A stretch of DNA of 46,731 nucleotides from Halioglobus sp. GTDB taxonomy: Bacteria > Pseudomonadota > Gammaproteobacteria > Pseudomonadales > Halieaceae. Numbering within the stretch: the stretch's first letter is position 1; every line of letters starts with the position of its first letter. Below are positions 39,542 through 43,647 of this stretch, one piece after another. A program made the position numbers and the translations under genes. The DNA lies in assembly GCA_002699145.1 (NCBI GenBank), contig PABK01000011.1:1-46731 (forward strand). Direction: 5' to 3'. A model generated the notes under the pieces. That model was not told where the DNA came from and searched no databases. It worked only from the letters and a program-made list of their open reading frames with translations.

Positions 39542-41686
39542 ATGGGCCTCTCCGCGAGAATTTTCATCGGTCTTGCCGCCGGCGTCGCCACCGGTCTCTT
39601 CTTCGGCGAGATGGTGGCCGGGCTGAAGGTATTTGGCGATATTTTTGTCAAGCTGCTGCAGGTCACGGTGCTGCCCTATATCGTCGCCTCGCTGATCGCC
39701 GGGTTCGGGCGTATGCAGCTGTCCCAGGCCAGGCGCCTGGCGCTGCGCGTCAGCGCTATCCTGTTGCTCATCTGGGGGCTGGCGCTGGCGTTGATATTCG
39801 CCGCTGCGATGGCCTTCCCCGACCTGGAGATCGCCTCCTTTTTCGGCAGCCCGGCCCCCGCCGAGCAGGCGCCGCCGGACCTGCTGGAGCTGTACCTGCC
39901 GGCGAACATTTTCTATTCCCTGTCCAACAACCTGGTGCCCGCGGTGGTGCTGTTCAGTATCCTCGTGGGCGTGGCGCTGATCTCCGTCGACGGCAACGAG
40001 AGTGTGCTGCTGTTCTTCGACGGCCTGGCCGGCGCCATGAGCCGTATCAACGCCGCAGTGGTGCGCCTGACCCCCTACGGCATTTTCGCCATCGCCGCGG
40101 CTGCGGCGGGCACCATGACCATCGAGGAGGTGAGCCGGGTGCAGGTTTACCTGGTCACCTACATCGCGCTGGCGATGTTGATCACCTTCTGGGTATTTCC
40201 CGGCCTGATCGCCGCCCTGAGCGGGATTCCTTTCCGGGAAGTCCTGCGCTCTTTCCAGGATTCCCTGGTGACGGCCTTCGCCACGGGCAACCAGTTCGTG
40301 GTCCTGCCGCAGATAGCCGAGAGCTGCAAGCAACTGCTGCGGCGTCATCGCCTGGGCAGCGCAGAGGCCGATTCCTCCATCGACATCATCGTGCCGGTGT
40401 CCTTCAATTTCCCCTCGCTGGGCAAGCTGCTGGTGCTGCTGTTCGTGCTGTTCGCCGCCTGGTTCACCGACACCGAGGTGAGCGTCGGTGAACAGTTCGC
40501 GCTGGCGGTCAACGGCCTGTTCAGCCTGTTCGGCAGTATCAATGTCGCCGTGCCGTACATGCTGGATACGCTGCACGTTCCCGCGGACATGTTCCAGCTC
40601 TTCCTCGTGACCGGCATCGTGGTGGGGCGTTTTGGCGCGATGCTCGCCGCCCTGCATATCGTGGTGCTCAGTGTGCTGGGCACGCTGGCCCTGTGCGGCG
40701 GCCTGCGCCTGGGCTGGGCCGCGGTGTTGCGCTACCTCCTGCTCAGCGCCCTCGCCATGGTGCTGCTGGTCACCGCCCTGCGCGCGTATTTTGCCCTGTT
40801 CGTGCCGCAGCCCCCGGACCGCGAACAGGTGCTGTCGAATATTACGCTGATGGAGCCGCGCGTGCCGGCGCGGGTCTCGGCGACAGTGCCGGAGGCCAGC
40901 GCGACGCAACTCGCGGGCACACGGCTTGACCACATTCTGCGTAGCGGGGTGCTGCAGGTCGGCTACCGACCCGACAACCTGCCCTGCAGTTTTCTCGGCG
41001 CGGATGGTGAACTGGTGGGCTTTGACGTGGAGATGGCGCACATACTCGCCCAGGACCTGGATGTGGCCCTGGAGTTCGTGCCCTTCGAGTTTGACAGCCT
41101 GGGCCGCATGCTGTCCTCGGGGCAGATAGACCTGGCCATGTCCTGTATCGCCAGCCTGCCCGACAGGTTTGCCTATGTCTCCTTTTCGCGTCCCTACCTG
41201 GACCTTTCGCTGGCCTATATCGTGCGCGACCACGAGCGCAAGCTGTACAGCAATCCCGGCGCATTACGCGAGCGTCAGGACCTGAGCGTCGCCATGGTCA
41301 GTACCCATTATTTCAGGAACCGCGTGCGGCAGTTGCTGCCCGGGGCCAGGCTGGTGGAACTGGAAGCGGCGGAGGACTTTTTTCGCGGCCAGGCGCCGCC
41401 GGCGGACGCCCTGTTGCTTTCCGCCGAAGAGGGGGCCGCCTACACCTATCGCTATCCGCATTACGCTGTGGTGCGCGTGCAGGACCCGCCGGTGCGCCTG
41501 CCCGCCGCCTACCCGGTGCCCAAGGGCGACGTGGAGATGATGGAATTCGTCAGTAACTGGATCTACCTGAAACAGCATGACGGCACCGTGGACAGGTTGT
41601 ACCGCTACTGGATGCTGGGCGGGGCTGCGCGCACGCGGCAGGTGCGCTGGTCGGTGATCCGCGACGTGCTGGGCTGGGTGGAGTGA
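39542..41686 (+). CDS. SDF (Glt-type) symporter fused to a solute-binding domain
   Basis: A 714-residue fusion. Residues 1-420 follow the dicarboxylate/amino acid:cation symporter (SDF) pattern: GLAAGVATGLFFGE, then FGDIFVKLLQVTVLPYIVASL and eight or more helices. Residues 460-690 form an SBP_bac_3-type domain (GVLQVGYRPDNLPCSFLGADG, GFDVEMAHILAQDL, IDLAMSCIASLPDR). The core SDF signatures are lost: the Ser-rich hairpin reads AFATGNQFVV (245-254), the NMDGT position reads NFPSLGK (289-295), and the DRxRTxxNVxGD helix begins GRFGAM (362-367). The membrane domain may therefore not transport classical substrates by the known mechanism. The binding domain would be on the periplasmic side. Confidence 0.82.
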   Translation: MGLSARIFIGLAAGVATGLFFGEMVAGLKVFGDIFVKLLQVTVLPYIVASLIAGFGRMQLSQARRLALRVSAILLLIWGLALALIFAAAMAFPDLEIASFFGSPAPAEQAPPDLLELYLPANIFYSLSNNLVPAVVLFSILVGVALISVDGNESVLLFFDGLAGAMSRINAAVVRLTPYGIFAIAAAAAGTMTIEEVSRVQVYLVTYIALAMLITFWVFPGLIAALSGIPFREVLRSFQDSLVTAFATGNQFVVLPQIAESCKQLLRRHRLGSAEADSSIDIIVPVSFNFPSLGKLLVLLFVLFAAWFTDTEVSVGEQFALAVNGLFSLFGSINVAVPYMLDTLHVPADMFQLFLVTGIVVGRFGAMLAALHIVVLSVLGTLALCGGLRLGWAAVLRYLLLSALAMVLLVTALRAYFALFVPQPPDREQVLSNITLMEPRVPARVSATVPEASATQLAGTRLDHILRSGVLQVGYRPDNLPCSFLGADGELVGFDVEMAHILAQDLDVALEFVPFEFDSLGRMLSSGQIDLAMSCIASLPDRFAYVSFSRPYLDLSLAYIVRDHERKLYSNPGALRERQDLSVAMVSTHYFRNRVRQLLPGARLVELEAAEDFFRGQAPPADALLLSAEEGAAYTYRYPHYAVVRVQDPPVRLPAAYPVPKGDVEMMEFVSNWIYLKQHDGTVDRLYRYWMLGGAARTRQVRWSVIRDVLGWVE

Positions 41687-41751: not shown

Positions 41752-43647
41752 ATGCGCCGTATCGCACTGTTACTCGCCGTTGGCCTGGCTTTCTGCAGCG
41801 CCGTGGCGCGGGCCGCCGGAGACTGGGAGGTCGCCACGCCGGAGCGGGTCGTCGCCTTCGGCGACGTGCACGGGGCGTTCGAGGACTGGACCGGCCTGCT
41901 GCGGGAACTGGGCGTCATCGACGCCGACAACAACTGGAGCGGCGGGCGCACGCACCTGGTATCCCTGGGCGATCTCATCGACCGCGGTCCCGGCTCGCGC
42001 CAGGTGGTCGAGTTGATGATGCAGCTGGAAGAGCAGGCCGCCGCCGTCGGCGGAGCGGTGCACATGGTCCTGGGCAATCACGAGGTGATGGTCATGACCG
42101 GCGACCTGCGCTACGTGTCCGCGCAGGAATTCCAGGCTTTCGCCGCGGACGAGTCGCCCGCCGAGCGCGAGGCCCTGTACGCGCAGTATCGCCGGTTCAA
42201 TCCCGCGGGTGAGGAGGCGGCGGCGCGCAGCGCGTTCGAGGCGCGCTACCCGCCCGGATTTCTCGCCCTGCGCAAGGCCTATTCCCCCGGTGGCAGGCTG
42301 GGTGACTGGCTGCTGCGCCAGCCCTTCGCCATCAAGGTGAATGACAAGGTCTACCTGCACGGTGGCATTTCGGCGCAGCTCAGTGGCGAGTCCCTGGACA
42401 GCATCAACGCCAAGCTGCGGGGCGAGCTGCGCGATTTCCTGGCCAACATGGCGGCGCTGCGCGACGCCGGGGTGATGCCCTGGCATGTGGGCTACCAGGA
42501 CAGGCTGAGCTTTCTCAATGCGCGCGCCGAGGAATTCGCCGCGGCCCACCCCGGCGAGGGGGCGCAGTGGTTCGAGCCACTCACCAGGGTGTTTGAGGCG
42601 CAACAGGCAGTATTGTTCAGCCAGGACAGTCCCAACTGGTACCGCGGTACGGCACTGTGCCATCCCTATGCCGAATCCTTCAATACCGAGCGCTTTCTCA
42701 AGCGCCTGGGCGCGCGGCAACTGGTTGTAGGCCATCCCCCGACCCGGGGCATGGCGCGCCAGCGTATGGACGGCCTGGTCATCCGCCTGGACACCGGCAT
42801 GCTCAGCAGCGTCTACCACGGACGCGCCGCGGCCCTGGTTGTCGAGGGCGGACGCGACCGTATCCACTATCTCGGGGACCCGGAGCCGTCCGTCCCGCTC
42901 GCCCAGGAGCGCAGCCTCGCGCGGCAGCTCTCGGACATGAGCGACGCACAGCTGGAAGAATTCATGCGCAGCGCGCCGGTGGTCGATATCCAGGATATCG
43001 GTACCGGGGTCACCCGGCCGAAACGGGTCACCCAGGCGCGCGGCGAGGTGCGGAACGACGCGGTGTTCAAGTACACGGATACCCACGCCGGCCTGCAGGA
43101 CAGCGCCAGGTATGTCCCGCGGCGCGCTGACGACGCGGACCGCTACGTCTATGATGTCGCTGCCTACAAGCTGGATCGCATGCTGGATTGGCAGATGGTG
43201 CCGACCGCGGTGCTCGCCAGCGTCGACGGTGACGACGGCGCGCTGTCGGACTGGGTCGAGGGCGCAATCAACGAGCGCGACCGGCTGCAGCAGGAAATAC
43301 CCTTCGGCGGTTATTGCAAACAGTGGGAGCAGTACCGCCTGCGTTTTATCTTCGACATCCTCATCTACAACGAGGACCGCAATCTCACCAATATCCTGTG
43401 GACGAAAGATGATTTCATGCTGCGTTTCATAGATCACAGCCTGGCCTTTCGCTCCCGGGAGAAGCGGCCCGGCCAGTACCGCAAGGTGGATCTCGAACTG
43501 TCCGACCTGCTGCGCAGGCGACTGGAGTCGCTGGACGAGGCCGGGCTGCAGCGCGAGCTCGGCGCCTACCTGCACCCGCGACAGATCAAGGCGATACTGG
43601 CGCGGCGCGATCTCATACTCGAGGAGGCGCAGGGCACGGACCCCTGA
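41752..43647 (+). CDS. Exported PPP-family phosphatase fused to an atypical kinase-like domain
   Basis: A 631-residue protein with a signal peptide (1-22, ARAA). Residues 33-375 carry all PPP metallophosphatase motifs: GDVHG (37-41), GDLIDRG (73-79), GNHE (108-111), HGG (203-205) and VGHPPT (326-331), most like bacterial Shewanella-like phosphatases. Residues 405-625 form a second domain resembling HipA/PI4K/FAM20-type kinases: FKYTD with K440, YDVAAYKLDRMLDWQMVPT (467-485), YNEDRNLTNIL (539-549) as catalytic-loop candidate with D542 and N547, and FIDHSLAF (559-566) as metal-binding motif. No helix separates the domains, so both would be periplasmic. ATG 41752 follows GGAGG by eight bases. 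The kinase call is inference from spacing and motifs. Confidence 0.8.
   Translation: MRRIALLLAVGLAFCSAVARAAGDWEVATPERVVAFGDVHGAFEDWTGLLRELGVIDADNNWSGGRTHLVSLGDLIDRGPGSRQVVELMMQLEEQAAAVGGAVHMVLGNHEVMVMTGDLRYVSAQEFQAFAADESPAEREALYAQYRRFNPAGEEAAARSAFEARYPPGFLALRKAYSPGGRLGDWLLRQPFAIKVNDKVYLHGGISAQLSGESLDSINAKLRGELRDFLANMAALRDAGVMPWHVGYQDRLSFLNARAEEFAAAHPGEGAQWFEPLTRVFEAQQAVLFSQDSPNWYRGTALCHPYAESFNTERFLKRLGARQLVVGHPPTRGMARQRMDGLVIRLDTGMLSSVYHGRAAALVVEGGRDRIHYLGDPEPSVPLAQERSLARQLSDMSDAQLEEFMRSAPVVDIQDIGTGVTRPKRVTQARGEVRNDAVFKYTDTHAGLQDSARYVPRRADDADRYVYDVAAYKLDRMLDWQMVPTAVLASVDGDDGALSDWVEGAINERDRLQQEIPFGGYCKQWEQYRLRFIFDILIYNEDRNLTNILWTKDDFMLRFIDHSLAFRSREKRPGQYRKVDLELSDLLRRRLESLDEAGLQRELGAYLHPRQIKAILARRDLILEEAQGTDP

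Follow-up and report, generated by a model that had tools for sequence, protein, structure and literature searches.

The window, by which we mean the whole 46,731-nucleotide stretch of Halioglobus sp. DNA analysed here, contains on its forward strand an intact open reading frame, at the position given by the original prediction, that encodes a 631-residue protein (P0001) in which family HMMs recognise both a phosphatase (6.5e-188) and a kinase domain (1e-123; Table 1). By a hydropathy heuristic the N terminus of this protein, MRRIALLLAVGLAFCSAVARA-AG, is signal-peptide-like, and 72 of 78 family rows pass the same heuristic while six miss it (the truncated row L064 was left out of this count); the fusion protein is probably exported, judging by these N termini. 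The observations from which the original prediction set out, namely the intact frame, the signal-peptide-like start (as judged by the heuristic), the motifs of a PPP phosphatase and a kinase-like C terminus, were thus confirmed. Located 65 bases upstream of the fusion gene is another fusion (39542-41686, + strand), in which a sodium:dicarboxylate symporter (PF00375, 2.5e-49) and a solute-binding domain of family 3 (PF00497, 3.4e-25) share one chain. Homologues of the symporter are present at 14 of the 23 loci of close relatives, but the 46 loci L053-L098 showed none (the flanks of L053-L072 are short), and we therefore rejected it as an operon partner and do not count it as part of the system.

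Table 1. Features of the phosphatase-kinase fusion gene in the window, with residue counts among fusions that keep (intact) or have lost (degenerate) the candidate kinase residues.
Feature	Position	Strand	Basis or occurrence
PPP phosphatase - kinase-fold fusion gene, putatively exported product	41752..43647	+	ORF; family HMMs
Signal-peptide-like N terminus, residues 1-21, AxA before residue 22	41752..41814	+	sequence and hydropathy heuristic
Shelph-type PPP metallophosphatase domain, about residues 31-380	41842..42891	+	Pfam, PDB matches, Foldseek, conservation
C303 in phosphatase, predicted partner of C522	42658..42660	+	71/71 fusions, 0/8 kinase-less phosphatases
FAM20/SCO1664/HipA_2-like kinase-fold domain, residues 396-631	42937..43644	+	profile searches, domain model, Foldseek
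K440, candidate beta-3 lysine (FKYTD)	43069..43071	+	41/41 intact, 1/30 degenerate fusions
C522 in kinase domain, predicted partner of C303	43315..43317	+	71/71 fusions
D542, candidate catalytic Asp	43375..43377	+	41/41 intact, 1/30 degenerate
N547, candidate metal-binding Asn	43390..43392	+	41/41 intact, 5/30 degenerate
D561, candidate metal-binding Asp (IDHS)	43432..43434	+	41/41 intact, 8/30 degenerate

Pfam Metallophos matches residues 32-209 of the window protein (2e-11), and the nearest solved relatives of the phosphatase are the PDB entries 2z72, 1v73 and 2zbm (E 6.5e-31 to 3e-30), all structures of the cold-active tyrosine phosphatase of Shewanella. A Foldseek search with the full-length model likewise placed a Shelph-type phosphatase first, and the best 50 matches were all phosphatases. 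The Shelph group of Shewanella-like PPP phosphatases is defined in PMC535813; the window family shares its phosphatase domain but adds a kinase, a fusion that the accessible part of that paper does not mention. The PPP motifs GDxHG, GDxxDRG, GNHE, HGG and GH, on which the original prediction relied, are all present together with the metal residues and are kept in 77-79 rows: D38, D74, R78, N109, H110 and H203 in all 78 rows with a letter there, H40 in 77 of 78 (one change) and H328 in 79 of 79. The phosphatase also matches dinucleoside tetraphosphatase models, at 2.2e-10 and below their cut-off.

For the C-terminal part, the motifs YNEDRNLTNIL, FIDHSLAF and FKYTD had been taken to denote an atypical kinase, and they are present and above chance. 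The best family-profile matches of the C-terminal 251 residues are to the SCO1664 family (TIGR03843, 9.8e-9) and HipA_2 (PF20613, 6e-6), both below the curated cut-offs (34.9 versus 172.4 bits and 26.1 versus 27 bits, respectively), and Pfam Fam20C gave no match in the window protein at E up to 10. We also scanned the C-terminal domains of nine distant relatives, five intact and four degenerate. The five intact domains matched TIGR03843 at 5.2e-6 to 2.6e-13 (the best match among relatives, 49.9 bits), HipA_2 at 2.3e-5 to 0.0026 and Fam20C at 0.013 to 0.094, and three of them also matched PI3/PI4 kinase (8.3e-5 to 0.043); the four degenerate domains matched TIGR03843 at 5.8e-8 to 6.5e-4 and HipA_2 weakly (two of four, about 0.2). 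For FAM20 (PF06702), the best score among the nine was 15.6 bits (E 0.013), under the curated 26.8.

When a profile of 21 intact kinase domains was searched against all PDB sequences up to E 10, it returned seven matches, of which six, the only entries below E 0.001, are FAM20 proteins (6.5e-8 to 2.5e-4) and the seventh stands at 0.84. FAM20A was the best match (6.5e-8), ahead of hydra Fam20 (8.1e-7), deposited as a glycosaminoglycan xylosylkinase, and FAM20C (2.7e-5), the alignments covering the FK...E/D-AAY-LDR and DR...D-F regions. Confidence in the full-length model is mostly good for the phosphatase but weak for the kinase part (ten-residue means 34-91), and since the best Foldseek matches of that model were all phosphatases, we folded the kinase domain alone. 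The resulting model of residues 396-631, built from an alignment limited to the window protein and the 23 close relatives, has a pLDDT of 72.8 and a pTM of 0.74, and FAM20 chains occupy Foldseek ranks 1-16 (E 1.8e-5 to 1.5e-3), followed by PI4KIIalpha (rank 17), CtkA (rank 19) and HopBF1 (rank 23); the FAM20 superposition is loose (TM 0.54, rmsd 9.6 A). FAM20 is therefore the nearest solved family by sequence and by fold, and both checks that had been proposed, the fold search and the count of candidate residues in homologues (below), came out in favour of a kinase. What stands of the original interpretation is its architecture, one probably exported polypeptide that joins a PPP phosphatase and a FAM20/HipA-type kinase fold.

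A tblastn search of phage and plasmid collections with 231 C-terminal residues gave no match at 1e-5, and we rejected an origin of the kinase domain from phages or plasmids as represented there. The domain profile did find six loci on IMG/VR viral contigs (L110-L115), which encode HipA_2-type kinases with a YNKDRN...IDH(S/T)HVF pattern, 23-29% identical over 100-150 residues (two of the six were Pfam-scanned). These proteins have the DxxxxN loop and IDH site of the fused kinase domain, but their frames of 265-278 residues are too short for an added phosphatase.

A scan of genome contigs recovered 23 full fusions that are close relatives of the window protein (L006-L028), 17 from Halieaceae, including Parahaliea, Seongchinamella, Pseudohalioglobus and Halioglobus, and six without a family name; Haliea, a genus that also occurs in the fusion records, presumably belongs to Halieaceae as well. 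Within the family sample a full fusion is present in 30 of 100 genomes, the window's own included, and one further genome (G023) holds a contig-edge fragment. The genus group of the window's genome has the fusion in only one of 18 sampled genomes, and the genes next to it in the window correspond to those of other genera, a pattern that loss in the genus relatives or transfer of the block would explain. The fusion also occurs in 40 of 117 genomes of a second gammaproteobacterial order. All kinase-domain matches in the class sample (four in 369 genomes) and in the order sample (45 in 117 genomes) lie in frames that also hold the phosphatase, so that a free-standing kinase domain was rejected for these samples; the phylum sample (398 genomes) yielded two weak, short matches lacking the phosphatase (L051 and L052).

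Conservation was assessed in 71 non-duplicate fusions, the window's included, and eight kinase-less phosphatases, after dropping the duplicates L046, L050, L056, L071, L073, L108 and L109 and leaving out L051 and L052 (no phosphatase) and L107 (the G023 fragment); the truncated L064 counts among the 71 and was left out of the tree and the rate test. The window protein and all 23 of its close relatives share K440, D542, N547 and D561 (24/24), and with 17 fusions of the second order 41 of the 71 keep all four, across several branches and at phosphatase identities down to the 0.3-0.4 bin. Of the other 30, 16 have none of the four, 13 have one and a single fusion has two; among these degenerate fusions, L098 belongs to the window's own family. 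D535, R543, F566 and D475 are nevertheless kept in 29-30 of the 30 degenerate fusions. Among pairs matched for phosphatase identity, conservation of the kinase domain roughly equals that of the phosphatase in intact fusions (difference -0.03 to +0.08) and falls behind it in degenerate ones (-0.06 to -0.09), the pairs being non-independent in both classes. A quick tree needs as few as five changes of kinase state, with 24 of its 75 inner branches open.

The original prediction had named free variation of the candidate D and N as evidence against a kinase, and this check gave a divided answer: 41 of the 71 fusions, including the window's clade, retain all four residues, but D and N are lost in the remaining 30. 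Because this loss is nearly all-or-none, part of the family looks like a pseudokinase, while the window's own clade, by its residues, does not. In our reading, the intact site would be selected for catalysis and the degenerate members would be pseudokinases.

The two domains may also be physically tied, by a cysteine pair that, like the CotH-like neighbour gene and the carrier described below, was no part of the original prediction. C303 and C522 are both present in all 71 fusions, those with dead kinases included, and are the sole cysteines after residue 26 in 63 of them, whereas position 303 is G, N, Y or D in the eight kinase-less phosphatases. This distribution predicts an interdomain disulfide, which may clamp the two domains together and would fit an oxidising, extracytoplasmic site.

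Clustering of neighbouring genes revealed a family of about 350 residues, CotH-like and putatively exported, which we call COTHL. It adjoins all eight kinase-less phosphatases, 22 of the 30 degenerate fusions (18 within 0.8 kb, four more at 2.4-2.6 kb) and none of the 41 intact fusions, with flanks that are unequal and in some cases cut by contig ends. Counted per genome, COTHL is found in 8/8 genomes with kinase-less phosphatases, 22/27 with degenerate fusions and 7/44 with intact fusions (28 of these 44 were classed as intact from their overall identity to the window protein and not from the single residues); in those seven it lies far from the fusion or on another contig. Aligned with 20 CotH domains, the COTHL profile gave an hhalign P of 2.9e-5 and a probability of 73.6; Pfam CotH (PF08757) was matched by four of 14 members (best 0.0057), and a search of PDB sequences gave no match. 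E137, D223, H237, N238, D257 and D259 are invariant in 14 of 14 members, the F of DFD being L or Y in single rows. COTHL is thus probably a distant CotH relative, as far as profiles can tell. A direct profile link between COTHL and the fused kinase domain was rejected, as their alignment was not significant (P 0.05, probability 1.1), and the fused kinase domain gave no significant alignment with CotH either (P 0.14).

Fisher values for the COTHL association are small, but they overstate the independence of the sequences because kinase state needs so few changes and because a test of independent contrasts between kinase loss and COTHL (two pairs on supported branches, five on all) has no power. 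We therefore regard the association of COTHL with kinase state as a strong pattern, not as a proven replacement. By the same neighbour rule, DUF4956 membrane proteins adjoin 19 of 30 degenerate fusions, three of eight kinase-less phosphatases and none of the 41 intact fusions. Five degenerate fusions (L073:3916-6501, L084, L085, L086 and L090) are preceded at 62-126 bases by a same-strand gene for a TonB-dependent receptor and show no COTHL within the flank (one of these five loci was Pfam-scanned). A few degenerate fusions have none of COTHL, DUF4956 or TonB receptor as a neighbour.

Another recurrent neighbour is a TLC-family carrier, which lies downstream of the fusion at 13 of the 23 loci of close relatives (on the same strand in 12), beside seven of 17 distant intact fusions and beside two of 30 degenerate ones (L081 and L098); none is encoded within the window. 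All five carriers scanned exceed the PF03219 cut-off (28.1-74.4 versus 21 bits), and all five fall far below that of the NCBI model TIGR00769 for NTP/NDP exchange transporters (21-75.7 versus 387.2 bits). A profile built from the carriers beside fusions found the ADP,ATP carriers 9j3n (1.2e-24) and 9j3j (3.5e-19) in the PDB. In a longer form of the carrier, a C-terminal He_PIG-like domain matches dystroglycan chains in the PDB, and ATP/ADP-carrier-like proteins with such a He_PIG/dystroglycan-like domain are encoded at L010:5005-6630, L079:2561-4243 and L098:77-1690. At locus L080 (3863-9218) two kinase-intact fusions stand in tandem, and behind each lies a carrier gene in the opposite orientation.

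Co-occurrence extends beyond adjacency, although the query profile was itself derived from fusion-adjacent carriers and shared ancestry inflates all of the following counts. In the family sample a close carrier (E up to 1e-80) is present in 28 of 30 fusion genomes versus two of 70 others, or 28 of 31 versus two of 69 if G023, which has no close carrier, is taken as a fusion genome; in several genomes it sits on another contig than the fusion. In the second order the figures for E under 1e-150 are 13 of 40 versus 0 of 77, with the carrier commoner in genomes with intact (9/15) than with degenerate fusions (4/25); at E up to 1e-80 they are 15 of 40 versus four of 77. Two of the 30 fusion genomes of the family sample are devoid of a close carrier, and one of them is the window's own, which holds a weaker paralogue only (199.5 bits) and gave no match to PF03219 in a search whose control likewise gave none.

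Among known systems, FAM20A/B/C of animals share with the fused domain the kinase fold and the K / alpha-C acidic / DR / D-F pattern, as well as the extracytoplasmic site predicted for the window protein, and the accessible part of PMC7948968 describes both active and pseudokinase members (FAM20A), a division that the fusion family would share. By comparison with FAM20, the fused kinase domain is bacterial, 236 residues long and placed behind a phosphatase; it has N in place of the E that the aligned FAM20 chains carry five residues beyond the catalytic D, and a single conserved cysteine with its predicted partner in the phosphatase. CotH spore-coat kinases (PF08757), described in the part of PMC12189002 at hand as bacterial kinases similar to Fam20C, have in COTHL a probable distant relative near the kinase-dead relatives of the window protein, but none of 24 CotH frames (cut at locus ends) contains a phosphatase. 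The opposed activities on one polypeptide that we propose have their parallel inside the cell. AceK, HprK/P and PFK-2/FBPase-2 are bifunctional kinase/phosphatases, which are cytoplasmic and built on other folds.

The reading we prefer, and to which we give an even chance on the sequence evidence, is that of a periplasmic bifunctional enzyme with an active kinase, in which the FAM20-like domain would write and the Shelph domain would erase phosphate. The kinase domain would put phosphate on an envelope protein, glycan or lipid, the Shelph-type PPP domain would strip it, and the C303-C522 bond would hold the two active sites in a fixed relation. In sister lineages the fused kinase would be dead and retained as a regulatory or docking pseudokinase, with a separate CotH-like exported kinase, encoded nearby, taking over the writing, and the ATP/ADP-carrier-like transporter could possibly feed the periplasm with cytosolic ATP in exchange for ADP from the kinase. 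Domain homology, conservation with the nearly all-or-none loss of the kinase residues, the cysteine pair and the gene associations are observed, whereas we infer export, the disulfide, that either domain is active, that both act on one substrate, that COTHL replaces the fused kinase and that the carrier supplies ATP. A larger scheme, in which a disulfide-locked kinase and phosphatase (or the phosphatase and a CotH-like kinase gene) would form a self-contained system of periplasmic reversible phosphorylation powered by an outward ATP/ADP carrier, seems to us unlikely, given that no close carrier is present in the genome from which the window comes.

If the kinase fold were a sensor or docking module in all members, the protein would be a periplasmic phosphatase and nothing would be written. 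This would account for phosphatase residues being kept in practically all rows when kinase residues are lost in 30 of 71, and for a cysteine pair retained even with a dead kinase. It would also suit the situation in E. coli, where, according to the accessible part of PMC7432876, no ATP/ADP translocase of the inner membrane is known, the route of ATP across that membrane is unknown and periplasmic ATP is rapidly hydrolysed. Pure docking, however, does not predict that K, D, N and D should be invariant in 41 sequences of several branches, nor that conservation of the domain should be lower where the kinase residues are lost, and we consider it somewhat unlikely.

The kinase fold might instead transfer a non-phosphate group such as AMP or glutamate, or use another donor, with the PPP domain removing what was added. 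SelO and SidJ are pseudokinases with such altered chemistry (AMPylation, polyglutamylation), and the match of the phosphatase to dinucleoside tetraphosphatase models points in the same direction. Protein AMPylation and polyglutamylation by pseudokinases are documented in references cited in the part of PMC7948968 that we draw on, but the same part reports that FAM20, the nearest solved family, phosphorylates, and the intact motif set is the phosphotransfer set; we therefore hold a different chemistry to be improbable. Equally slim is the chance that the target is a glycan, with the kinase domain phosphorylating an envelope sugar and the phosphatase reversing this step, by analogy with the animal xylose kinase Fam20B on proteoglycans: hydra Fam20 is about as close as FAM20A/C in sequence and fold, but the relative of known structure on the phosphatase side is a protein tyrosine phosphatase.

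We found no description of a fused exported kinase-phosphatase or of its family among the best-matching titles and abstract openings of the open-access literature, a scope that leaves most subscription papers outside; in that literature the parts are of known kinds, and we found no account of their combination, of the compartment or of the partner genes. Should the fused kinase prove active, bacteria would have their own equivalent of the phosphorylation in the animal secretory pathway, one that unites writer and eraser on a single polypeptide, and FAM20-like and CotH-like kinases would be tied to one recurrent phosphatase partner. The supply of ATP to periplasmic enzymes would then become directly testable through the co-occurring carrier. 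An active kinase could also suggest a role in free-living bacteria for NTT-type carriers, whose characterised members stem from parasites and organelles according to the accessible part of PMC5381601. On this view, bacteria may place and remove phosphate marks beyond the cytoplasm.
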